From: a virus
DNA: 37,024 nucleotides
Strand: one strand, 5' to 3'
IMG/VR virus record: IMGVR_UViG_3300044633_000612
Span: 1 to 37,024 of that record
Positions 5,518-37,024 of this stretch are shown here, piece by piece (within the stretch, counting starts at the first letter, position 1; each line of letters starts with the position of its first letter). The notes beneath the pieces are model-generated. The model ran no database searches, was not told where the DNA came from, and saw nothing but the letters and a program-made list of their open reading frames with translations. A program made the translations under genes and the position numbers.

Positions 5518-7137
5518 TTAGAACAAGTCTTCATCTTGATTTGAACTAGCATTGTGAATGATTTTGTTGATTGTCTCTGTTACATCTTCCATCTGAGGGA
5601 GTTTTGTGTCTTCTTGAGCATTAAAAATGAATGGCTGCCCTACTTTTGGAGCTGAGCTAGTGTCACCAAATGAATAATATCTCTCAACTCCTTCAGTTAG
5701 GTCTAGCTTCATTTCATCTTTCAGAACTTTCCTGATGTAAGTGACAGAGATTTGATTGTTATTTGCAAACCATTTCTCTTTGACATCTTTAGCAGTTGCA
5801 TGAATTGTCTTAGCTGCAAAATTGTTGAAGAAGTCTTCAGCAAAATATTCAATCTCTTTTCTGAGAGTTGAATGAGATTCAAGCTTGACTCTTTGCAGAG
5901 ATTCAGTTGCAATCTCATCTTGAGTGAACACCATTCTAGACTTGCTGAAGTCAACTTCTGGAAGTTGAGTCAAGAATCTGAGAAAGAGAGGAATCTCTGT
6001 GAACAAGTCAAGCTCAATGTTTGTGTTCTTAGTTCCTTCAATGGGTTTGATTTTTCTGACCCAAAATCTGATTTCTTCTTCATCAATCCTCATGAAGTCA
6101 GTTTCTTTGTTAGTACAGACAATCACTTTCCCGAAGAAAGGTACGGCATAATGAGAGACAAACTTCTGAGATACTGACATTGTCTTTGCAGTTGCAATAG
6201 ACTTCAGCTTCTCAATGACATGAGCTTTGTCAATCACAGTTTCATCAACCATAATGATGTTCTTTGTTGCATAACCATCATTAAAATTAGACATTAAATC
6301 TGCTGGGTTGATGAGAGTTGAGTTCTCTCCGAAAATCATTTGAATCCAGTTCAGAAAGGTTGTCTTGCCCGTTTCTCTTTGTGTTGAGACAAGAGCTAAG
6401 ACTGGGAGAATCTGTCTAGGAAACTCATAGAGAATTTTCATGTACTTGAGTCCTAGTTGCCACTGCTCTCCGAAGATGTGAGTTATCAGCTTGAGAGTTG
6501 TTGGGATATGTTCTGCTAGAACATCTTTTGAAGCTGGGTCATGAGAGAACTTTGAATAAAGGTTATAACAGTTCTTATAGACCGGCAGATATTGAACATT
6601 ATTAGGAAGAATAGTAAAGTCATCAAATTTGAAGATTCTGCTGAGAAGCTGCTTTCCGTGGTCTTCTTTAATCTCATCTTTTTTCCAGGGCTTGAGAATA
6701 GTGTTTATTGCTTCATATCTGTCTGATTTAGTTATTACTTTGAAATAGTCAGTTCCTACTCTGATATATGGAATTTCAGACTTCATCAGTTGAAATGAGA
6801 CATAAGACATTGCAGCAAAATAATCTCCTTTAAACATTACTGAAGACAGAAGCATGAACTTTGAAATCTTGCTACCTTTCGCTAAGTCATACTCATTGTC
6901 TTTGACAACATCAACAAGACCATTATTAAGTATGAATGTAGCTTTGTTCAAATCTTTAGTCAAGTCTTTAGGATTGATGAGAGCAGCTTCATTCTCATTG
7001 ATAGCATTGAAGTTCTTGAGCCCTTCAAAAATAGAGATAAAGTTTCCATAAAAGTTGAAATAATCTACTGGGTTGAGATGCGGACTTGACTCTAGTTTGA
7101 GGAATTTGCTTGAGTCTTTATTTTTATTTTCATTCAT
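5518..7137 (-). CDS. Replicative helicase, SF3/DUF5906-type
   Basis: A 539-aa protein whose central ATPase has Walker A STQRETGKTT (251-260) and Walker B IIMVDE (294-299), followed by a segment ending TNKETDFMRID with the pattern of phage D5/DUF5906 helicases. The N-terminal 230 residues show no recognised motif; the C-terminal 130 are charged and could carry a winged-helix loader. It would unwind DNA at the fork. The gene starts four bases after the primase-like gene, so the pair resembles the primase-helicase fusion of other phages split in two. The iteron region follows directly. Confidence 0.85.
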   Translation of the reverse strand: MNENKNKDSSKFLKLESSPHLNPVDYFNFYGNFISIFEGLKNFNAINENEAALINPKDLTKDLNKATFILNNGLVDVVKDNEYDLAKGSKISKFMLLSSVMFKGDYFAAMSYVSFQLMKSEIPYIRVGTDYFKVITKSDRYEAINTILKPWKKDEIKEDHGKQLLSRIFKFDDFTILPNNVQYLPVYKNCYNLYSKFSHDPASKDVLAEHIPTTLKLITHIFGEQWQLGLKYMKILYEFPRQILPVLALVSTQRETGKTTFLNWIQMIFGENSTLINPADLMSNFNDGYATKNIIMVDETVIDKAHVIEKLKSIATAKTMSVSQKFVSHYAVPFFGKVIVCTNKETDFMRIDEEEIRFWVRKIKPIEGTKNTNIELDLFTEIPLFLRFLTQLPEVDFSKSRMVFTQDEIATESLQRVKLESHSTLRKEIEYFAEDFFNNFAAKTIHATAKDVKEKWFANNNQISVTYIRKVLKDEMKLDLTEGVERYYSFGDTSSAPKVGQPFIFNAQEDTKLPQMEDVTETINKIIHNASSNQDEDLF

Positions 7138-7141
7138 TTTG

Positions 7142-8047
7142 TTAGTTGTTGTTAGTTAAATAGGCTGGGCTAGACATTCCTTGTTTAATCATAGTCTCAG
7201 AAGTTTTAATGTAAACAGAAGCTTTTTGACAAAGATATGAATTTGAGTTAATCATGTTTTTAAGAGCATCAGCAGCATCAGCTTCAACAATATAACCAGC
7301 GCCAACATAGCCTCCCATCAAGTAGGCTGCTGCTCTTAATTGCGGGTGTCCATTGTCAACAATAGCATCAATCTTCTTGCTGATAATCTTCTCAACTACA
7401 TTAGTCTTGTCAGTGATAATGTATTGCTTGACTTGAGGTGCTTGAATTTTAGTTATTTTCTTTGTCCAAGTAGTTGCATTCTGGCGGATTAAAATGTCTT
7501 TGTCATAGCTGATGAACATTGGGAGAATGCAATTTTTGGGAGCAGTATCAAATCCGTTATAGATATTGAGTTTATTTTCGATGGCATTAAAGTAATCTTT
7601 GAACTCAGAAACATTCTCACAAATAGGAATCTTGACTAAAGCTCTGACTCCGTGCCTAGAAGCAGAGAGCCAAGCAGCAATGATGAAATCATGTTCATCA
7701 AAGAGATACTGTTTGAACTCAGCAGCATTGTCAAGCTCTAAATGGTCAAAGTCAAGCACTAGAAGACCAGTGAATTTATTGATGTTTGAATATTTTCTAG
7801 TGCCTTCTTTGTAGCTCTGTGAATGATTGAGAAGAATGCAAGGAGTGAATGAGTAGAGCTTTGTTTTAAGCTGCTGCTTTGTCTTCATATCTTTGCATTC
7901 TTCAGCAATCCTAATCTGTTCAAATATATTTCTAATATCTACCTTAGGAGCTTTAATAGCATTCAAGACATAGTCAAGAGAAACAGACCCAAGAGGGAAT
8001 GATTTCTGAATGTCAGCTTCATAGAAATTGAAAATAATATCTTTCAT
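7142..8047 (-). CDS. Primase-like protein, BT4734/VirE N-terminal family
   Basis: A 301-aa protein with the hallmarks of the BT4734-like (VirE-N) domain, related to archaeo-eukaryotic primases: FTGLLVLDFDHL (acidic pair near 99-101), WLSASRHGVRALVKI (near 126-140) and FDTAPKNCILPMFISYD (near 183-199). This family is characteristic of Bacteroidetes and their mobile elements, usually fused to or next to a DUF5906/D5 helicase, exactly as here. It probably lays primers at the phage origin. The last 90 residues are helical. Its start overlaps the 64-aa gene by four bases. Confidence 0.8.
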   Translation of the reverse strand: MKDIIFNFYEADIQKSFPLGSVSLDYVLNAIKAPKVDIRNIFEQIRIAEECKDMKTKQQLKTKLYSFTPCILLNHSQSYKEGTRKYSNINKFTGLLVLDFDHLELDNAAEFKQYLFDEHDFIIAAWLSASRHGVRALVKIPICENVSEFKDYFNAIENKLNIYNGFDTAPKNCILPMFISYDKDILIRQNATTWTKKITKIQAPQVKQYIITDKTNVVEKIISKKIDAIVDNGHPQLRAAAYLMGGYVGAGYIVEADAADALKNMINSNSYLCQKASVYIKTSETMIKQGMSSPAYLTNNN

Positions 8048-8238
8048 TTATTGCTTTTTTTTATCATTTTTTTATTGAGCTTTCCATAGTCAGTTTCAGT
8101 GTACTTGAAATCTTCTTCTCTAATAGCTTTTTGAATAGCATGAGAGAGACTTTCAGCATTGACTGGAATACTTCTTCCAGAAAGAGATTTAATGATGAAC
8201 AGAGACATCTTTTCAGTTGTTTTCTTTGAATTGCTCAT
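8044..8238 (-). CDS. Hypothetical protein (64 aa) between queC and primase
   Basis: The longest frame begins at 8304, inside queC, but the start at 8236-8238 (MSNSKKTTEK) gives a 64-aa protein with a more ordinary 26-base overlap. The protein has a short beta-like stretch (MSLFIIKSLSGRSIPV) and a basic tail ending KKMIKKSNK. It contains no recognisable domain. Tight overlaps on both sides place it in the modification-replication operon. Confidence 0.68.
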   Translation of the reverse strand: MSNSKKTTEKMSLFIIKSLSGRSIPVNAESLSHAIQKAIREEDFKYTETDYGKLNKKMIKKSNK

Positions 8239-8884
8239 AACCAGCAGCTCTAAGCTCACAAGCTGGGCAAGTCCCACAACCATATCCCCATTGATGAAGT
8301 TCATCTCTTACTCCATTATAGCAAGTATGAGAGAATTTAATTATTTGACTTAAAACTCCTAAATCTTTAGACATTTGCCAAATCTTAGCTTTAGAAAGCC
8401 ACATCAAAGGAGTTTCAATAATGATATGAGAATCAGAGCCTAGATTTGAAGTCATTCCAATCATTCTTATGAAGTTGTTTCTGCAATCAGGATACCCACT
8501 GAAGTCAGTTTCACAAACTCCTGTCACTAGAACAGTAGCATCAATCTTCTGAGCAAAAGCATGAGCTAGAGTTATGAATAGCTGATTTCTATTTGGCACA
8601 AAAGAATCTGGAAGACCTTTAGAGTTAATCTTGTTCACATCTCCGTTAGAAGTCAGAGCAGAATCAACTAAAGTAGATAAGAAAGAGACATCAACAATAG
8701 TCTGTTTGATATGCTCAATTTTGCAGATTAATTTTGAGCATTCAATTTCTACAAGGTGCTTTTGACCATATTGAAAAGTGATTGCTTCTACTCTTTGGTA
8801 TTTGCTAATTGCCCAATAAAGGCAAGTAGTAGAATCTTGACCCCCGGAAAAGATTACTACGGCAGTTTTATTAATCTTCATCAA
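8213..8884 (-). CDS. queC: 7-cyano-7-deazaguanine (preQ0) synthase QueC
   Basis: A 223-aa ATP-dependent enzyme that converts 7-carboxy-7-deazaguanine and ammonia to preQ0. The PP-loop SGGQDS is at 13-18, and the C-terminal zinc site is complete: C188, C203, C206 and C209 in the HTCYNG and GCGTCPAC motifs. FVPNRNQLF and GVCETDFSGYPDCR are family-typical. Length matches the bacterial enzyme and no key residue is missing. The start overlaps the end of the ParB-like gene by 14 bases. With queD, queE, folE and queF upstream, it completes preQ0 synthesis for DNA modification. Confidence 0.96.
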   Translation of the reverse strand: MMKINKTAVVIFSGGQDSTTCLYWAISKYQRVEAITFQYGQKHLVEIECSKLICKIEHIKQTIVDVSFLSTLVDSALTSNGDVNKINSKGLPDSFVPNRNQLFITLAHAFAQKIDATVLVTGVCETDFSGYPDCRNNFIRMIGMTSNLGSDSHIIIETPLMWLSKAKIWQMSKDLGVLSQIIKFSHTCYNGVRDELHQWGYGCGTCPACELRAAGYEQFKENN

Positions 8885-9344
8885 ACATAGATATTTGAGT
8901 TGTTTCTACTTTTGGGTTGAAATTTGCCCAATTAAAGTTCATGATATTCTTTATCTCAACAAGCTCAGCAATATTGAAAGCAGTGACTTTCTCAATGTCA
9001 GAGATGTCAATGACTGAGAGAAGCTGATTGACAAGCTCAGAAACTGCCACAAAGTTATACTCATTGACAGAAATAGTCTGCAAGTATATCAGCCAAGCTT
9101 GATGCAATGAGATGTCTCCTAAATCAAAGCACCATACTTCAGTGAATCCTTCTTCTCTCATCATTTCAAGGATAGTATTTCCTTTCACCACTTCATAATT
9201 TCCGTCACTTAATTTCCTGACAATGATGTTCTTAATCTGACCAGTTTTGATTAATGAAGCTCTAAGCTTATTGCTGACTTCTGCTGCTCTGTTCTTGCAG
9301 TGATACTCATTTGTTTTAATTAGTTTTATTGGTATTAATTCCAT
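8871..9344 (-). CDS. ParB/sulfiredoxin-fold protein in the DNA-modification cluster
   Basis: A protein of 157 aa if started at M8 of the longest frame (ATG 9342-9344), which leaves only a 10-base overlap with dpdA and is preceded by a GGGGGAT stretch; the longer start at 9365 is possible. The N-terminal 75 residues match the ParB N-terminal/sulfiredoxin fold: LIPIKLIKTNEYHCKNRA, LRASLIKTGQIKNIIVRK, then YEVVKGNTILEMMREEGF, where ParB proteins have DGxHR-type residues. There is no obvious DNA-binding HTH afterwards. Such domains bind or hydrolyse nucleotides. Its place between dpdA and queC suggests it works with the transglycosylase, perhaps as cofactor or specificity subunit. That role is inferred. 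Confidence 0.72.
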   Translation of the reverse strand: MELIPIKLIKTNEYHCKNRAAEVSNKLRASLIKTGQIKNIIVRKLSDGNYEVVKGNTILEMMREEGFTEVWCFDLGDISLHQAWLIYLQTISVNEYNFVAVSELVNQLLSVIDISDIEKVTAFNIAELVEIKNIMNFNWANFNPKVETTQISMFDED

Positions 9345-10051
9345 TTTATCCCCCTTTTTTCCCATAAGTTAGTAATTTGTTGCTCCATGTTTAAGAACTC
9401 TTTTATTCTTTGTCTGAGGTAGAAGTTGAAACATTTCTGATTCCAAAACTGCTCTCCGTTTATCTTGAATCTTTTATAGGATATACTGTCAACACTAAAG
9501 AAAGGATATAAAGCTAATCCCTTGAAGCTGCTATACCCCAATCCGTGGCATTTTACATCAGCTTTAGTAATATTGAAGACAGTGTTCAAGAACTCTCTCT
9601 TGATGTTCTCATGAGTATCATTAGCAGGGGAAATTCCAATATAATCAGTATGTTCCATATATTTCTTTAACCACATGATATTATCTCCATAATGATATAC
9701 AGGCATGACTATCCCTTTGACTCTTTCTTTTAGGTAGAGAAAATTCTCAAAGCTCTGCTCACAACATTTGTCAATATCTTTCTGTTTGCTTCCTGTTTTA
9801 GGGATAACATCTAGATTGATGAAGGTATAGTTGGAGTTTCTAGAGTTACAAAATTCCAAATATTTATCAATGTCAATTGTTCCTCCTTTGTTCCAAACAC
9901 TGAAAGCACCACTGTCAATTATAACATTGTCAAGAGGATTGATGTTGCTCATTTGCTTAGCATCAACGGCAAAGGAGAAAAGATAGTTCTTTGCTCCTAG
10001 CTCTTGAAGCATCTTGTAGGCAATTGTTGCCGAAGAAAAGTAGTATCTCAT
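9335..10051 (-). CDS. dpdA: DpdA-type DNA guanine transglycosylase
   Basis: A 238-aa TIM-barrel protein related to tRNA-guanine transglycosylase but shorter and lacking its zinc-binding region, as expected for phage DpdA proteins that exchange guanine in DNA for a 7-deazaguanine. VIIDSGAFSVW (D46) matches the TGT motif DSGGFQ. FINLDVIP (D81), YIGISPANDT, and KCHGLGYSS (H169) followed by YPFFSVDSISY (D188) match the substrate and nucleophile regions. D188 is the probable nucleophile that links to DNA. The neighbours queF (1-base overlap) and queC supply the base, probably preQ1. The protein is compact and may need the adjacent ParB-like protein. DpdA subfamily was not determined. Confidence 0.87.
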   Translation of the reverse strand: MRYYFSSATIAYKMLQELGAKNYLFSFAVDAKQMSNINPLDNVIIDSGAFSVWNKGGTIDIDKYLEFCNSRNSNYTFINLDVIPKTGSKQKDIDKCCEQSFENFLYLKERVKGIVMPVYHYGDNIMWLKKYMEHTDYIGISPANDTHENIKREFLNTVFNITKADVKCHGLGYSSFKGLALYPFFSVDSISYKRFKINGEQFWNQKCFNFYLRQRIKEFLNMEQQITNLWEKRGIKWN

Positions 10052-10452
10052 TATAATTCCCCCTCAATGCAAGTAGTGTCAAACCCGCCTCTAGTATTGT
10101 AGATAGTTGTCACTTTGACTTTTTTGTTCTTCAATACATTGCTTAAATCTTTGTAGATTCTAGCAGTGACTCCTTCTTGATAGATTCCGACATTTCTGAA
10201 TGAAGTGAAATAGTATTTCAAAGACTTCAGCTCAACACAAAGTCTAGCTTTAGGCTTATATTCTATTTTTACATAAGCAATGTCAGGAAGCCCACTGAAA
10301 GGACAAACTGCTGAGAACTCTTTTGTCTCAGTGATAATAGTTTGATTTATGCTATCAAATTTGAAAGCTTTCAATTCACTTGTTAATATTTCACTTTCAG
10401 GTAAGAAGCTGAAAGATTTACCTTCAGCTTCTTGGTTAACAGTTACGTCCAT
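10051..10452 (-). CDS. queF: NADPH-dependent preQ0 reductase QueF
   Basis: A 133-aa single-domain QueF reducing the nitrile of preQ0 to the aminomethyl group of preQ1. The catalytic Cys lies in FSAVCPFSGLPD (C50) with the proton-donor Asp at D57. The family signature ELKSLKYYFTSFRNVG spans 74-89, followed by YQEG with the conserved Glu at 93; a Gln stands where Bacillus QueF has His. The enzyme looks functional. Its presence predicts that preQ1, not preQ0, is the base offered to DpdA. It overlaps dpdA by one base and follows an unknown 87-aa gene. Confidence 0.92.
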   Translation of the reverse strand: MDVTVNQEAEGKSFSFLPESEILTSELKAFKFDSINQTIITETKEFSAVCPFSGLPDIAYVKIEYKPKARLCVELKSLKYYFTSFRNVGIYQEGVTARIYKDLSNVLKNKKVKVTTIYNTRGGFDTTCIEGEL

Positions 10453-10465
10453 TTGTTTATTGTTT

Positions 10466-10729
10466 TTAAGAGTTAGTAATTAGTTCTAAAACAGCCGTAT
10501 GGTGGCTATTTACTTTTAAAGCGCCATCAATAAATTGACCACGAGAGTCCCTTGTTTCTATAATTTTAGTAAGGACATAGCCAGGGTGATTTTCTATTGC
10601 TGGATAATGCTTTGAACCAACGCCATATTGGTATGGCTGTGGGTCGTAGTAAGTAACAATAAGAGCGCCTTTAATTTCTGAGTGCGGCAAGCCAGTGTAG
10701 AAGCTGCCAATTTTGAAGTCTTTGTTCAT
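10466..10729 (-). CDS. Unknown protein (87 aa) inside the deazaguanine cluster
   Basis: An 87-aa protein starting MNKDFKIGSFYTGLPHSE and rich in Tyr, His and Gly (PYQYGVGSKHYPAIE). It looks like a small beta-rich domain without membrane segments. No family was recognised. It begins three bases after folE and ends 13 bases before queF, so it is co-transcribed with the pathway genes. A role in processing or regulating the modification is possible but unsupported by motifs. Confidence 0.68.
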   Translation of the reverse strand: MNKDFKIGSFYTGLPHSEIKGALIVTYYDPQPYQYGVGSKHYPAIENHPGYVLTKIIETRDSRGQFIDGALKVNSHHTAVLELITNS

Positions 10730-10732
10730 TTT

Positions 10733-11281
10733 TTATTTATTTGTTAGGGTTAAAAATTCATTTCTACAATCATGCTCAGTTTTGAATGTTCCGAGCATCT
10801 TTGATGTAATAGTTAAAGCATCATGTTTCTTGACTCCTCTCATACACATACAGAGATGTTGAGCTTTCAATGTGACTGCCACTCCTAGAGCACCAGTCTC
10901 AAGCATGATTCTCTCAGCTACTTCAGTTGTGATTCTCTCTTGATTTTGCAGTCTATTAGCATACAAATCAACACATCTTGCCAGTTTGCTTATTCCTAAT
11001 ATCTTTCCATTTGGGATATAAGCTACTGAAGCAGTGCCAAAGAAAGGAGCTACATGATGCTCACAAAGAGAATAGAACGGAATATCTTTAAGAATAACCA
11101 TTTCATCAGTTTGTTCACTGTCAAAAGTAGTGAACTCAAACTCTGTGGGAGTTAAGAACTCTCTGAGAAACTTGATGTATCTCTTTGGAGTTTCTTTCAA
11201 TCCTTCTCTGTCTGGGTCTTGTTTAAGAGCATAGAGAATCTGTCTGAAGTGCCACTCTGGGCTATTTATAGAATGTTCCAT
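10733..11281 (-). CDS. folE: GTP cyclohydrolase I
   Basis: A 182-aa type I GTP cyclohydrolase making 7,8-dihydroneopterin triphosphate from GTP, the first step of both folate and 7-deazaguanine synthesis. Zinc ligands are visible in [13 protein letters not shown] (C73, H76) and QHLCMCMRG (C144), with catalytic-region motifs [16 protein letters not shown] and QERITTEVA. Length and domain are complete. It sits between queE (16-base overlap) and the unknown 87-aa gene, which ties it to preQ0 production rather than to folate. A phage copy would lift supply of the precursor during infection. Confidence 0.96.
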
Positions 11282-11874
11282 ATTTTATGATTTTGAAGTG
11301 AAAGTCTCCATTTAGGATTTGAAAGACATAAATCAATACAATGCTTCATGTTATCACTGTTGATATTGAAGCCGTCAGAGTGCGGAGAGAGCCAATAATA
11401 CTTTGCAATAGTTAAAGGTTTAGGAACATCTTGTCCTTTATGTCTGACATATCTCAGCTCATGAACACCTAAAGGGAAATTCTTTGCTACAATATGCTCA
11501 GCAACTTTAGGAGAAACGCAAACAAAATCAATTCCTGCCGGGCAGCTATTGAGTCCACTTGTTTCAATAGCTTGATAGAATCCTAATACTTTGAAATATT
11601 TCACTATTTCTTCCGTCAGTTGGTCTGTTGGTTCGCCTCCAGTCCAAGTTATCTCTTTAGAATTAGCATTCATCAATATCCATTCATGAATCTCTCTCAG
11701 AGTCATGTCTTTTCCGCTTTCAAACTCAGTGTCACATTTGATTCCAGCAGCGGCACAGGCAAACTTAGCTTTACAACCTGACAATCTGATGAACACTGTG
11801 GGAGTTCCTACTCTAGCTCCTTCTCCTTGTAGTGAGTAGAAGATTTCTGATACTCTTAGTTTAACTTGGTTCAT
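11266..11874 (-). CDS. queE: 7-carboxy-7-deazaguanine synthase QueE (radical SAM)
   Basis: A 202-aa radical-SAM enzyme converting 6-carboxytetrahydropterin to 7-carboxy-7-deazaguanine. The ATG at 11872-11874 ([10 protein letters not shown]) is preferred over 11916 because it reduces the overlap with queD from 56 to 14 bases. [23 protein letters not shown] is QueE-like, [11 protein letters not shown] is the SAM-binding GGEP motif, and a VSPK motif follows. The cluster cysteines are C34, C40 and C47 in [18 protein letters not shown], a spacing of CX5CX6C instead of CX3CX2C. A lengthened cluster loop is known in some QueEs (CX14CX2C), so activity is plausible but the spacing is unusual. Confidence 0.93.
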
Positions 11875-12220
11875 AACGGCATAAAGTTTTAGGAGTTTCT
11901 GACATTTCAATTGCATAGATTAGAGGATAAATAGCATTGAATTTATTGAATAGAACTCTGCTCATATTTTCAACAGTTGTGTTCATTGTAGGAAAGATGT
12001 CATTCAAGTTTCTATGGTCAAGAACATTGTCAACATATTTCTTGATGGCACCAAGCTCTCCATAGTCTTGAACAAATCCTTGTTGATTGAGTTCTTGACT
12101 CTTTAAAAATACAGTTAATACATAGTTATGACCATGAAGTCTTCCGCACTGATGCCCGTCAGGAAGCCCATGCAACTGATGAGCTGAAGAAAAGTGAAAT
12201 TCTTTTGAAATTGAGTACAT
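11861..12220 (-). CDS. queD: 6-carboxy-5,6,7,8-tetrahydropterin synthase QueD
   Basis: A 119-aa member of the PTPS/QueD family, converting dihydroneopterin triphosphate to 6-carboxytetrahydropterin. Zinc-binding histidines are H14 (SSAHQL), H29 and H31 (GRLHGHNY); the catalytic Cys is C25 in HQCGRLHGH; the LDHRNLND motif carries D69 and H70, and TTVENMSRVL is family-typical. All key residues are present. It is the first pathway gene, lying two bases after the exonuclease gene, and overlaps queE. Confidence 0.95.
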   Translation of the reverse strand: MYSISKEFHFSSAHQLHGLPDGHQCGRLHGHNYVLTVFLKSQELNQQGFVQDYGELGAIKKYVDNVLDHRNLNDIFPTMNTTVENMSRVLFNKFNAIYPLIYAIEMSETPKTLCRYEPS

Positions 12221-12222
12221 AT

Positions 12223-13017
12223 TTATTTTATTTTAGTGATTACTGACTTAAAATTTGTCCCTAGATGTGTTTTTCCGATTGTCTGAGATACTTTCTCATG
12301 ATGTTGGGCTAAATATATCCGAGCAGCAATTATCCTCTCTCTAAGACGGCTCAAAATGCTTTCATCATATTCAAACTCAAAATTGATGAATCTTTCATGG
12401 TCAGCTAAATCAGAGTAGATGACTTCTTGTTTGCTATACATAACCTCCGCAGGAGTATCTTGTAGTCCATAGAACAAGTTGAACTTCTTCTTCTTGTATA
12501 TTTCCATATAAACTTGACCTTGTAGCTCATAAGCTTTGTCATAGCCGTTAACACATACATCAAAAAGAGTCTTCTTGCTCCAGCAAGATTTCACATCTGA
12601 AACTCTGTCTTTCATAACAACATCAGCAGTTCCGGCAAAATAGTCATCAGAAGCAAAGTCAACATTTTTCTGAGCAAAACCAAAGTCAAGAACTTTAGCC
12701 ATGAAGTCAATGTTGTCAATCTCAACCATATTTCCTTTAGCAGTGTATTTGCTCCAAGCTTCTTCTCTTTCATCAGCATACCACTCATTCAAGAATGTCT
12801 TTGCAGTTTGTGGGAGTTCAGGATTTAGATGAGCTAAAACTAAAGCATGAAGTTCATCTTTCATGTTGTCAGTTAGTGGTTTGATAGCAGCTTCTTTTCT
12901 GTCTTGAAGCTCTTTCATTTTAGCAAGTTGGCTCTCTGTTAAGCCCCATTGCCCATCAAGCTTTGAAGCTTGAGAGGCATGAAGTAGGAATATTTTATTT
13001 GTCATTTGATTTGTCAT
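12223..13017 (-). CDS. PD-(D/E)XK exonuclease (RecB/YqaJ-like)
   Basis: A 264-aa nuclease with the RecB-like active site: YFAGTADVV (D132), SDVKSCW (D141, K143) and the Q-Y motif ELQGQVYMEIY (Q166, Y170). It resembles phage exonucleases that resect ends for strand-annealing recombination. Upstream lie a coiled-coil protein and an OB-like protein, making a plausible recombination module. Two starts, at 13017 (MTNQMTNK) and 13005, lie within a duplicated 12-bp unit, each with the same CAAATCAAATG context, so the true start is uncertain. The upstream gene overlaps by 23 or 11 bases. Confidence 0.8.
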   Translation of the reverse strand: MTNQMTNKIFLLHASQASKLDGQWGLTESQLAKMKELQDRKEAAIKPLTDNMKDELHALVLAHLNPELPQTAKTFLNEWYADEREEAWSKYTAKGNMVEIDNIDFMAKVLDFGFAQKNVDFASDDYFAGTADVVMKDRVSDVKSCWSKKTLFDVCVNGYDKAYELQGQVYMEIYKKKKFNLFYGLQDTPAEVMYSKQEVIYSDLADHERFINFEFEYDESILSRLRERIIAARIYLAQHHEKVSQTIGKTHLGTNFKSVITKIK

Positions 13018-14191
13018 TTGATTTGGTTATTAATTGTTTCAAGTCATAAATTGTATTTTCAAGCTGAAGCTTTACTTCATCAACTATCTTCTGAGATTTC
13101 TTTGTCTTAACAACAGGCATCTCAGTGATGAGTTTTCTGATAGATTGACCAATCTGAATCAGCTTTTCTTTGTCAGGAGCTGCTTCTGCTGCTTCAATAG
13201 CATCAGATTCAGCTTTAGCTTTAGCTGCTTCTGCTGCTTCTTTTGCTCTTATTTCTGCTTGAACTTTAGCTGCTTCTGCTGCTGACTTATCTGCTTCTGC
13301 TTTTGCTGCTGCAATAGCTTTGTCAGATTCTTCTTTTGCTTTAGCTGCTGCTTCTGCTGCTGACTTAGCTGCTGCTGCTGATGCTTCTGCTGCTTTAGCT
13401 GCTGCTTCTTTTGCTGCTGCTTCAGTTTCTCTAGCTAATTTGAAAGCAGCTTCAGCTTGAGCTTTAGCTTCCGCTGCTGCTTTCTCTGCTGCTTCAATTT
13501 GAGCTTTCTTGAGAGCTTCTGCTTCTGCTTCTGCTTGAGCTTTAGCTGCTTCTGCTGCTATTCTTAATGCTTCTGCTTCTGCTTTTGCTGCTGCTGCTTG
13601 TAAGTTAGCACCTTTCAACAATTTGTCAAAGTCTTCTTGACTTAGTCTTCCAAGCTCTAGCCCAATAGGAATGAACTCTTTAACATTCTCACATTGATTG
13701 ACTCTAAGCTGATTCAGTTGAGCTTCTTCTTGCTGCTGCTTGATTTGTCTGTTCTTCTCTACTTGAAGGTATTTTTCTTCATCAAGAAGACAGTCTGACT
13801 TAATTAAATTGAATGCAGCTTGTTCAACATTAGCTTTAAGAAGATGAATCTTTTTTCTGTTGTCTTTGATAGCCTCACAACTTGTTCTCACTTTGACAGT
13901 TCTCAATCTCAAGTCTCTAGCACAACCTTCATCTATTAGAGTTGGGTTCTCATAATTGATTCCAGCCGCTATTGCTTTTATCTCAGCTAACTGTTGAAAA
14001 AAACTAGTGTATGACTGTTTTATCAAAGTAGCTTCATCAGTTGGGAGGTTAGATTCAGCAACAACTGAATCAAGCTGCTCTGAGTTATAAACTACAAGAG
14101 AAGTAGAATCTTCTGAGACTTCTTCAGCAATCACAACAACTGCTTCAACTGATTTAACTTTTTTGGGCGCTCTAGGCTTCTTTGGTTCCAT
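12995..14191 (-). CDS. Coiled-coil protein, DUF1351-like N-terminus and Ala-rich tail
   Basis: A 398-aa protein in three parts: an acidic N-terminus (1-50); a helical region (50-200) with ARDLRLRTVKVRTSCEAIKDNRKK, resembling the DUF1351-type proteins found beside phage recombination genes; and a long Ala/Glu/Lys coiled coil (about 200-340) with hendecad-like AEAxxAA repeats, before a short Lys-rich end. It overlaps the OB-like gene upstream (20 bases) and the exonuclease gene downstream. It may organise or tether DNA-processing enzymes. The repeat is encoded by imperfect GCT/GCA tracts, whose antisense gives a spurious Ser/Cys-rich plus-strand ORF. Confidence 0.7.
   Translation of the reverse strand: MEPKKPRAPKKVKSVEAVVVIAEEVSEDSTSLVVYNSEQLDSVVAESNLPTDEATLIKQSYTSFFQQLAEIKAIAAGINYENPTLIDEGCARDLRLRTVKVRTSCEAIKDNRKKIHLLKANVEQAAFNLIKSDCLLDEEKYLQVEKNRQIKQQQEEAQLNQLRVNQCENVKEFIPIGLELGRLSQEDFDKLLKGANLQAAAAKAEAEALRIAAEAAKAQAEAEAEALKKAQIEAAEKAAAEAKAQAEAAFKLARETEAAAKEAAAKAAEASAAAAKSAAEAAAKAKEESDKAIAAAKAEADKSAAEAAKVQAEIRAKEAAEAAKAKAESDAIEAAEAAPDKEKLIQIGQSIRKLITEMPVVKTKKSQKIVDEVKLQLENTIYDLKQLITKSNDKSNDK
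13001..13024. repeat. 12-bp tandem duplication spanning a stop/start overlap
   Basis: The unit GTCATTTGATTT occurs twice in a row. On the minus strand it encodes the C-terminal KSNDKSNDK of the coiled-coil protein in one frame and the N-terminal MTNQMTNK of the exonuclease in another, so both proteins carry a duplicated motif and the exonuclease has two candidate starts. Confidence 0.9.
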
Positions 14192-15310: not shown

Positions 15311-16111
15311 TTATTTAGCTTCTTCTACTACTGTCAAAGTATTGATTGACTTCAATAGCTTGATGAATTTGCCTTCTTCAGTTGATTCTACTGCTACATA
15401 AGCGGCTGGTTTCAAAGTATCACTGAAGACAGTTAAAGAAGTGACAACTCCCTCACATTCATCTTCTGAACGGTATAGGTTGAATCTTACTTTGTCTCCA
15501 ACTTTAATCAATAAAGCTGCTGCTTCTTTAGCTGCTTTAGCTGCTGCTGCTTTAGTTTTAGCTTCTTCTGCTGCTTTTACTGCTTCTTCATTTATATTAG
15601 CTTTAGTTGCTGCTGCTTTAGCTTTAGCTGCAATCTTAGCAGCAAGAGCATCAGCTTTAGCTTTGTCTGCTTCTGCTTTAGCTGCAATCTTAGCGGCTTT
15701 TGCTGCTGCTAGTTTATTAGCTTCCACTTTAGCTTTTTCCTCTGTTGTAGCTGCTTTATTTGCTTTTTCAGCATCAGCTTTAGCTTTAGCTGCTGCTTTA
15801 GCTGCTTTAGCTTCTTCTGATTTCGCTGGAGATTTAGCTTTAGCTGCTAAAGCTTCTAAAGACTTAACTCCTTTAGCTGCTGCTGCTGCTTTTTCTTCAT
15901 GGGTTGCTTTAGTAGCTGCTAACTTATCAGATGACTTCTTCTCTGCTGCTGCTTTTTTGTCAGCATTCTTAGCGGCTAGGTCAGAGATTGCTTTGTCTGC
16001 TGCTGCTTGAGCTTTAGCTGCTTTAGCTTCTGCTGCTGCTGCTTTGTTACTTACTACATCAGTAATTGTGGGAACTGAATTGTCTGCTGGATTTTGATTT
16101 TTTGTTGACAT
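15311..16111 (-). CDS. Ala/Lys-rich histone-H1-like protein with C-terminal beta-barrel domain
   Basis: A 266-aa protein if started at 16109-16111 (MSTKNQNPADN), which has the AACCAAAATCAAATG leader; a frame-compatible start at 16183 adds 24 residues lacking that context. Residues about 20-200 are a low-complexity Ala/Lys/Glu repeat (AAKAKADAEKANKAA-like) resembling histone H1 or Hc1-type nucleoid proteins. The last 65 residues (VGDKVRFNLYRSEDECEG to INTLTVVEEAK) look like a compact SH3/KOW-type barrel. It may bind or compact DNA. It could instead be a purely structural coiled coil. Confidence 0.72.
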   Translation of the reverse strand: MSTKNQNPADNSVPTITDVVSNKAAAAEAKAAKAQAAADKAISDLAAKNADKKAAAEKKSSDKLAATKATHEEKAAAAAKGVKSLEALAAKAKSPAKSEEAKAAKAAAKAKADAEKANKAATTEEKAKVEANKLAAAKAAKIAAKAEADKAKADALAAKIAAKAKAAATKANINEEAVKAAEEAKTKAAAAKAAKEAAALLIKVGDKVRFNLYRSEDECEGVVTSLTVFSDTLKPAAYVAVESTEEGKFIKLLKSINTLTVVEEAK

Positions 16112-16188
16112 TTGATTTTGGTTTTTTGGGGTTATTATTAAATTATTAAAAACTTGTTTAAGGAGTTGGCTTTTTATATTCATGAATT

Positions 16189-35050: not shown

Positions 35051-36547
35051 TTAAACTGTTTCAAGAGCTGCAATGTCAGTGGCAAATACACCTTTAACAA
35101 AAGCAGTTCTGTTGTTGTTCTTAGTTACTAAAGCACCTCTCCACTCAGCAATGATAGTTCTCAAGTTCTTAGTCCAGTCATTACCGTCAAGACCAATATT
35201 AATCATGATTCCGTCCATCTGATATAAAACAGATAAATCAAAGTTTCCAACTAAATATTCTCCAGATGTTACTAAAGTAGTTCCTATCATTGGAACTCCA
35301 TCAAGAGTAAGAGTAGAACCAATATAAAGCAATCTATCAATGTATCTTCTATCAGTTGCAGAAACTTTCATCAACTTTAATTTAGTGATGTCATTTGGAT
35401 TCATTAAGATAGCATTCGGAGCCTCTTGATTAGCTAAAGCAATCTGATTCATAGCTACAACTAGAACATCAGCATTATTAGCATTGTCAACAGTAGCGGC
35501 AAAAGCACCAGCAGCAAAAGCAGTAGCAACAGTTCTAACTCCGTTTAATGCTGGAGGAGTATTGTTTCCGCTATAAGCAGTTAACTCAACATCTAGCAAA
35601 AGCTCTCTCATTAACTCATTTCTGATTTCACTTTCAATGAAGTCAATGTCATCTAGCATCTCAGTAGAAACCTTGATGAATGCAGTTCTTTTGCAAACAT
35701 TTTGAGAAGCAACAACTAAATCAAAATCAATTTGATTCTTAGTTGCACCTTCTTCAGTACCACCAGCAGCTCCGTCTTTGTTAGCTTGGTAAACCCATGA
35801 GATAACATTTGAAGTTGTGTTTCCTTTAGCAAATAAATCAATCAAACGGATTCTTCTTGTTGCAATAACATTCAAGCCCGGGATTCTTTGTTCAACTGGA
35901 ACATTTCCTCCACTCACATTAGTAGATTCTAACATTGTTCCAACCGTCTTGAATGCAAACCCAGCTCCTACTGCTGCTGATTTGTCAGTTGATTTAAGAG
36001 CTGCTAACTTTTCTTTGTTAGCTGCAAAAGCTTCTTTAATGCTTTGACCATTCTGAATAAGTGAATTTCCAGCATTCTTTTTGTTTAAAGATTCAATAGC
36101 TAAGCCATACTCTTTTAAAGCTTTGTTTAATGCTTTAAATTGGTCAACTTGGTCATCTTTGATAGCTTTCAACATAATGTCAATATCTTCTTTAGAAGCT
36201 TTGCTTTCAATTAACTTGTTCAATTCTGCCTTTGAATTGTCATTCTTGGCATTGTAATAAGCAGCTAAATCTTCAGCAGAGCCATTCTCAATTAACTCAG
36301 TTAATTTCTCAGCAGATAATTCTTTGAACTTTCCTTCTACCATAAATACTGGGAGAATAGTTGCTAAGGAGATTCCAGCGCCTATTGCAGCACCCTTGTC
36401 CATCTTGCTGAAGTCAGCATTGGAAATTCCTATTCCGGCAAATAACATCACTACAAATAACAAGAAACGTGCTAGAGACTGCTTCTTCTTTGCATGACTG
36501 ATTTTTAATGTGTTTGAATTGCAAACTTTGTAATTAAGCTCTTTCAT
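35051..36547 (-). CDS. Major capsid protein, HK97 fold (complete)
   Basis: A 498-aa capsid subunit. Residues about 1-175 form an unusual delta-like region: a basic start (KISHAKKKQ), a signal-peptide-like segment (28-44, FLLFVVMLFAGIGISNA), a second hydrophobic stretch (52-70), then charged helices (75-175). The HK97 core follows, with GLNVIATRRIRLIDLF, ISWVYQ, a KVSTEMLDDI region and PNAILMNPNDI. The upstream protease would remove the N-terminal region. A GENE copy with the same beginning is at 1-380. The leader AAACCAAAATCAAAATG precedes the start. Confidence 0.9.
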   Translation of the reverse strand: MKELNYKVCNSNTLKISHAKKKQSLARFLLFVVMLFAGIGISNADFSKMDKGAAIGAGISLATILPVFMVEGKFKELSAEKLTELIENGSAEDLAAYYNAKNDNSKAELNKLIESKASKEDIDIMLKAIKDDQVDQFKALNKALKEYGLAIESLNKKNAGNSLIQNGQSIKEAFAANKEKLAALKSTDKSAAVGAGFAFKTVGTMLESTNVSGGNVPVEQRIPGLNVIATRRIRLIDLFAKGNTTSNVISWVYQANKDGAAGGTEEGATKNQIDFDLVVASQNVCKRTAFIKVSTEMLDDIDFIESEIRNELMRELLLDVELTAYSGNNTPPALNGVRTVATAFAAGAFAATVDNANNADVLVVAMNQIALANQEAPNAILMNPNDITKLKLMKVSATDRRYIDRLLYIGSTLTLDGVPMIGTTLVTSGEYLVGNFDLSVLYQMDGIMINIGLDGNDWTKNLRTIIAEWRGALVTKNNNRTAFVKGVFATDIAALETV

Positions 36548-37024
36548 TTTGATTTTGGTTTTAGATTTGGTTTTTAATTAATTTAGATAATAATTGTTTG
36601 GTTTTTGCTCTTGCTTCTTGCAGTGATTTCTCGGCTGCCGTTATTTGAGTAGATAAATCTGGCTCAATGCTTTTTGGAATGTTTACTGATATTGTTGGAG
36701 TAGCATAGTTGCTTCCTTTTAGAACTGCACTACCTTCAATGATTTTAGCTTCTGTCACTGCCCAGAAGTATCCTTCTTCTTCAATGTCATCTTTATTAGC
36801 AACAAAAGGAAAATATTTATCCCAATTTGCTTTCTCTTGAGTATACAATTTATCAGTTGTATTGATGCAAAGAAAGAGATTAATGTATCTCATTCCCACT
36901 GAATGCTCTTTTACCCAGCCGTTCAAGTATTGATTAAACATGAATTCATTTCTGTCAGAGCTTACTTTAGCTTCAAAGATTAATGCTTCAGTATCTCCAA
37001 GAAGTTCAATTCCTAAAGATGCCC
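36168..37024. repeat. Terminal duplication, right copy (pairs with 1-857)
   Basis: Aligns without gaps to 1-857. The capsid part (36168-36637) is almost identical; the protease part (36638-37024) has about one mismatch in four. The switch is abrupt at about 36627-36638, inside the 3' end of the protease gene. Confidence 0.95.
36561..37024 (-). CDS. Prohead maturation protease, C-terminal part (copy B, cut by window edge)
   Basis: The reading frame is open to the right edge of the window, so the 5' end is missing; 27 codons precede the first visible Met, and they align with copy A (LGIELLGDTEALIFEAK against LGVELDGETEALIFEAA). The remaining 126 residues are about 86% identical to copy A, whereas the DNA is only about 76% identical outside the last 25 codons, so most changes are silent. 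S228 of copy A is retained in IIEGSAVLKGSN. It is a functional-looking allele, followed by the capsid gene. Confidence 0.88.
   Translation of the reverse strand, partial: ASLGIELLGDTEALIFEAKVSSDRNEFMFNQYLNGWVKEHSVGMRYINLFLCINTTDKLYTQEKANWDKYFPFVANKDDIEEEGYFWAVTEAKIIEGSAVLKGSNYATPTISVNIPKSIEPDLSTQITAAEKSLQEARAKTKQLLSKLIKNQI

Follow-up and report, generated by a model that had tools for sequence, protein, structure and literature searches.

The exchange of guanine for 7-deazaguanines in phage DNA has been followed chemically in several phages. By LC-MS, 2'-deoxy-preQ1 (dPreQ1) was measured in Dp-1, which carries DpdA and QueF, at ~1.7% of G, and in HVTV-1, which carries a viral QueF, at ~30%; dPreQ0 was measured in both CAjan and Rosebush, and CAjan loses its DNA base when dpdA is deleted (PMC6884629). 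In bacteria, DpdB is a ParB-like ATPase that powers the insertion (PMC12839542), and a gene of the ParB superfamily found beside DpdA in a mycobacteriophage has already been suggested to be DpdB (PMC6392294). Genes for queuosine synthesis have also been described in Cellulophaga viruses grown in culture and in the genomes of marine viruses of Bacteroidetes (PMC7198788).

Here we describe an operon in a viral stretch of 37,024 nucleotides (IMG/VR record IMGVR_UViG_3300044633_000612; hereafter the window). The same cluster, annotated as queuosine genes, is present in the Cellulophaga phages phi38:2, phiSM, phi3:1, phi47:1 and phi3ST:2, with DpdA 65% and QueF 62% identical to those of the window. 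Shared features are the dpdA-parB-queC order, a Gln-type QueF and a degenerate ParB motif (region gp48-gp57 in phi38:2). The arrangements differ, in that queD and queE of phi38:2 follow queC and its folE lies farther up, whereas the window begins with queD-queE-folE; phi38:2 also carries a Lys/Ala-rich gene and, separating QueF from DpdA, a further gene of the YkgJ type, where the window instead has an orphan gene for a protein of 87 aa. Streptococcus phage Dp-1 shares FolE, QueD, QueE, QueC, QueF and a DpdA of the DpdA1 type (phrog_887) with the window, but has a His-type QueF, a larger DpdA (311 aa) and a QueT transporter gene, and its cluster is without a ParB gene. Arthrobacter phage Mufasa8 and Mycobacterium phages Knocker and PenguinLover67 resemble the window in having ParB beside or near DpdA together with preQ0 genes, although their DpdA proteins are larger; Mufasa8 and Knocker also have QueF, with Cys at the position of His96 in the Bacillus subtilis enzyme, whereas the cluster of PenguinLover67 is without QueF. 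The bacterial Dpd system likewise combines a DNA insertase of the TGT fold with a partner of the ParB superfamily (PMC12839542), and includes the structure 7ui4 that matches the fold of the window protein. However, bacterial DpdA has ~400 aa, the window protein is missed by the NCBIfam model for that family, bacterial DpdB is an ATPase (model of 352 positions) whereas the ParB protein of the window is short and has lost the motif, and no DpdC was seen in the window.

Results and Discussion

The window encodes the terminase subunits, portal and major head protein of a tailed phage. Since the ends of the contig match, if imperfectly (1-788 against 36168-36955, 91% match, with the first 470 bases nearly identical), the window is probably a near-complete, circularly permuted genome of ~36.2 kb, closed by a variant copy; the topology call for the IMG/VR record is linear. 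The operon is flanked by primase genes (5518-8047) on one side and by an exonuclease gene (12223-13017) on the other. Related degenerate repeats (families D1 and D2) make up two long ORFs (12995-14191 and 15311-16183) that are Ala-rich and coiled-coil-like. The nearest relatives of the terminase are from Elizabethkingia and Flavobacterium phages, and a VirE-N/primase-like gene has matches only in Flavobacterium, Cellulophaga and Maribacter phages, so that a flavobacterial host is well supported, which backs the Bacteroidetes host proposed in the initial annotation of this DNA.

A Single Operon for Predicted preQ1 Synthesis

All five enzymes that the initial annotation had listed for the route from GTP to preQ1 (FolE, QueD, QueE, QueC and QueF) were recovered on the minus strand by HMM searches against Pfam, PHROG and NCBIfam. 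They form a single operon (8213-12220) of overlapping or nearly touching genes in the order queD, queE, folE, the 87-aa orphan, queF, dpdA, a parB-like gene and queC. QueD, a 6-carboxytetrahydropterin synthase of 119 aa (11861-12220), scores 89.5 bits against TIGR03367 (cut-off 89.25), matches PF01242 and has the conserved C25, HGH and D68-H69. FolE, a GTP cyclohydrolase I of 182 aa (10733-11281), scores 192 bits against TIGR00063 (cut-off 181.6), exceeds the cut-off of PF01227 and has the conserved C73, H75, H76 and C144. QueC, a preQ0 synthase of 223 aa (8213-8884), reaches 239.6 bits against TIGR00364 (cut-off 150.3) and is intact, with the SGGQDS motif and the cysteine cluster C188, C203, C206 and C209; PADLOC reported QueC in the window and otherwise weak matches only.

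The QueE-like radical-SAM protein, a 7-carboxy-7-deazaguanine synthase of 216 aa (11266-11916), matches phrog_2076 (E 3e-21) and stays under the equivalog cut-offs of NCBIfam, its match to TIGR04508 included. In an alignment with 13 QueE sequences the three cluster cysteines are kept, spaced as C48-x5-C54-x6-C61, a spacing also found in two further viral loci (L014 and L018). Elsewhere the spacing is C-x3-C-x6-C (phi38:2 and loci L012 and L017) or, in several other relatives, C-x3-C-x2-C. FolE, QueD, QueE and QueC thus all carry their catalytic motifs, with the cysteine spacing of QueE being unusual. The earlier statement that key residues are present holds for FolE, QueD, QueC and DpdA, and needs qualification for QueE (C-x5-C-x6-C) and for QueF, which has Gln92 at a position discussed below.

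Two genes within the operon had gone without mention: a ParB_N gene (8871-9365) and the 87-aa ORF (10466-10729, minus strand), the latter without a match in Pfam, PHROG or NCBIfam, or in 50,697 phage records at E 1.

A Compact DpdA of the DNA-Modifying Family

The predicted DNA guanine transglycosylase DpdA (9335-10051, minus strand) is compact, with 238 aa, and matches phrog_887 (E 2.9e-51). This family holds the DpdA proteins of the window, 9g, CAjan, Dp-1, Salmonella phage 7-11 and phi38:2, with DpdA2 of nt-1 assigned to phrog_10773; judged by its sequence, the window protein belongs to the 9g/CAjan/Dp-1 family (DpdA1). Among 125 viral DpdAs, those of 9g and CAjan included, D46 and D188, which had been named correctly beforehand, are each kept in 123, and H120 and H169 in 123-124. 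H169, D46 and D188 align with 9g and CAjan, where the conserved histidine is His196 of 9g (PMC6884629); DpdA2 of nt-1 does not align. In the DpdA phylogeny phi38:2 is sister to the window (support 87), both within a clade of nine rows (support 99).

The AlphaFold model (pLDDT 93.1) is led in its Foldseek matches by TGTs, and these matches include 7ui4, the bacterial DNA preQ0 insertase DpdA, so that we are confident in a predicted fold of the TGT-like barrel type. The structural and family assignment proposed earlier for this protein has accordingly yielded a TGT-like fold and a place with DpdA1 rather than DpdA2, in a comparison that covered DpdA1 and DpdA2. A scan of viral contigs with the single DpdA sequence gave no match, and the sequence searched against the PDB returned coiled-coil artefacts only.

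A ParB-Fold Neighbor of DpdA

Between dpdA and queC, and overlapping the end of dpdA by ~30 bases, lies the gene for a protein of 164 aa (8871-9365, minus strand) that matches PF02195 (26.6 bits, cut-off 26.3) and phrog_16545 and whose predicted structure matches the ParB/Noc/KorB fold in Foldseek. The nucleotide-binding motif GxHR, which reads GEHR or GNHR in most aligned relatives, is degenerate in the window (KGNTI), and is also lost in its nearest relatives (phi38:2 and loci L012, L016 and L017). Given this loss across the clade, we infer that nucleotide use is unlikely there and that the sequences point to a binding role for the flavophage protein. The loss of the motif in this clade is what the present analysis adds to earlier reports of DpdA with ParB.

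The gene could serve phage partition or regulation, unrelated to dpdA, and lie beside it by chance. ParB-like genes are commonplace in phages, and the protein of the window has lost its C-terminal part along with the GxHR motif. The neighborhood counts, too, come from profile HMMs built in this analysis: a ParB gene lies within 1.5 kb of DpdA in 27 of 120 non-redundant DpdA loci, and 37 of 48 ParB matches in the fetched loci adjoin DpdA on the same strand (31 downstream, 6 upstream), the latter a count that keeps redundancy and is biased because the profile was trained on DpdA neighbors. Against a chance neighbor, the two genes again lie side by side in phages of Cellulophaga, Arthrobacter and Mycobacterium and in numerous IMG/VR contigs, usually with overlapping ORFs; mapped on the DpdA tree, the ParB label requires 10-11 changes, at least five of them forced by strongly supported branches, so the pairing recurs at several independent points of the tree. 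Bacterial DpdA, moreover, also works with a ParB-like protein, DpdB (PMC12839542). A chance neighbor thus seems to us unlikely, if not lightly set aside, and the ParB-fold protein is probably a partner of DpdA that, by analogy, resembles bacterial DpdB in role. The direct comparison by hhalign with DpdB-like DGQHR proteins covered 49 columns at a probability of 69.5, those proteins being themselves below the DpdB cut-off.

We tentatively extend the partner role one step further, to a scenario that we find rather doubtful: in the flavophages, a catalytically dead ParB-fold protein might act as a subunit dedicated to DNA targeting for a minimal DpdA of 238 aa, and insertion would then proceed without the nucleotide-driven DpdB step and might be site-selective.

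QueF and the Base in the DNA

QueF (10051-10452, minus strand) is a Gln-type preQ0 reductase, unimodular in build, that scores 99.0 bits against TIGR03139 (cut-off 86.9), and its match is to the QueF-II HMM, over the cut-off. Aligned with the B. subtilis QueF structures, it keeps Cys50, Asp57, Glu74 and Glu93 and an intact NADPH-binding QueF motif (ELKSLKYY), and has Gln92 at the position of His96; the QueF of phi38:2 has Gln there too. The residues described as defining QueF are Cys55, Asp62, Glu97 and the QueF motif with Glu78 in B. subtilis numbering, His96 not being among them (PMC5372742), and their counterparts are all found in the window (C50, D57, E93 and ELKSLKYY). The Cys, Asp and both Glu residues are near-invariant among viral QueF sequences (102/105). 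The viral residue at the His96 position varies among H, M, Q, G, C, Y, A, T, V and I.

The Gln-type QueFs of phages share one clade of 20 rows (support 100) with cellular QueFs from Neomarinimicrobiota, Gemmatimonadota, Spirochaetota and others. In 10 of 10 bacterial genomes with a Gln-type QueF it is the one QueF that exceeds the family cut-off, although these genomes are metagenome bins, of which incomplete ones could miss a second QueF, and two of them (L181 and L186) fall outside the 20-row clade; TGT is present in all ten and QueA in nine. The Gln-type QueF is therefore, most simply, probably an ordinary preQ1-making reductase, as judged from these sequences, with other chemistry unlikely, and the prediction of dPreQ1 stands.

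Loss of His96 was rejected as a sign of a new chemistry or of an action on DNA-bound preQ0. In the raw counts a non-His QueF is associated with an adjacent ParB gene (20/23 against 17/57, Fisher p 3.6e-6); the association is gone once relatedness is corrected for, the residue almost never differing in five independent pairs on starred branches. Kinship thus removes the association, and the Gln-type enzyme is the sole QueF of queuosine-type bacteria.

A base other than dPreQ1, such as dPreQ0, dG+ or a further derivative, would result if the Gln-type QueF had other chemistry (a QueF-L-like amidotransfer, or weak reduction) or if an unrecognized gene, for example that of the 87-aa protein, modified preQ1. 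The Gln shared with phi38:2 would fit such an outcome, QueF and QueF-L are hard to separate on similarity alone (Hutinet 2019), and a YkgJ-type cysteine-cluster gene beside QueF/DpdA in relatives suggests tailoring in some of them. We nevertheless consider another base improbable, given the bacterial genomes above, the intact NADPH-binding motif and QueF-II match, and the absence of a YkgJ-type gene from the window, where one was searched for. YkgJ-type CxxCxxCC proteins do occur beside QueF/DpdA in unrelated phages: phi38:2 gp53 (L003, 11963-12616), Pan1 gp55 (L011, 5587-6237) and Knocker gp4 (L008, 2544-3188). They are candidate tailoring enzymes for preQ1 DNA, and extra tailoring of the base is therefore likelier in those phages than in that of the window. 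In Microbacterium phage Megan (L257, 670-2543), two adjacent DpdA-like genes are both annotated as queuine tRNA-ribosyltransferase.

A Proposed Pathway

In the pathway that we propose, GTP would be converted to preQ0 by FolE, QueD, QueE and QueC, preQ0 would be reduced to preQ1 by QueF, and DpdA would exchange guanines in the phage DNA for a 7-deazaguanine. QueF and DpdA could act in either order, with free preQ1 being inserted or preQ0 being inserted and then reduced. The product would be mainly dPreQ1 or a simple derivative, which may blunt host restriction, and the overlapping ParB-fold protein would most probably work with DpdA on the DNA in recognition or tethering, taking the place of bacterial DpdB. 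It is very improbable that the operon instead serves tRNA, with the DpdA-like protein acting there to give more host queuosine (or preQ1-tRNA) for translation: a possible role in translation was raised for marine Bacteroidetes virus genes annotated as queuosine synthesis (PMC7198788), but the window DpdA groups with DNA-modifying DpdA, has 238 aa against ~360-380 aa in the tRNA TGT chains among its Foldseek matches, and has as its neighbor a ParB fold, which is typical of DNA-binding proteins.

We put the probability at roughly 0.78 that the operon makes preQ1 and places mainly dPreQ1 or a derivative in the phage DNA, with a ParB-fold helper and against restriction, as predicted from sequence, models and analogy. 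This reading is favored because the six enzymes stand in one operon, because of the family and fold of DpdA, because Dp-1 and HVTV-1 provide precedents, because QueF retains its defining residues, because of the comparison with bacterial Gln-type QueF, and because ParB recurs beside DpdA. Counting against it are the QueE score below the equivalog cut-offs, the odd spacing of its cysteines, the degenerate motif of the ParB-fold protein, whose helper role is drawn from gene neighborhood and analogy, and the low level in Dp-1, the proven case with DpdA and QueF, where no more than ~1.7% of G is exchanged. On the same grounds of family, fold, precedent and Gln-type QueF, the self-contained preQ1 route, the DNA transglycosylase and the dPreQ1 product of the initial annotation are retained, and its implied novelty is not: the same gene set is already present in Cellulophaga phages, and phages with DpdA and QueF and with measured dPreQ1 have been published.

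Conclusion

Clusters of DpdA and QueF are common in viral contigs. DpdA lies near QueF in 80 of the 105 non-redundant viral QueF genes examined, a fraction that is biased upward since some of these loci were fetched via their DpdA. Together with the Cellulophaga clusters and the chemistry of Dp-1 and HVTV-1, this indicates that the gene set is common and that its likely product has already been measured elsewhere; the operon of the window is a good, if unremarkable, instance of the known strategy of swapping DNA bases. With it, an uncultivated flavophage joins the phages in which preQ1-type DNA is expected, and the operon could help to settle whether the free base or DNA is the substrate of QueF, a question left open by the 2019 phage study. 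The recurrent pair of DpdA and ParB is a useful lead, being a compact two-protein system suited to reconstitution in vitro, from which it could be learned how phage DpdA locates its guanines.
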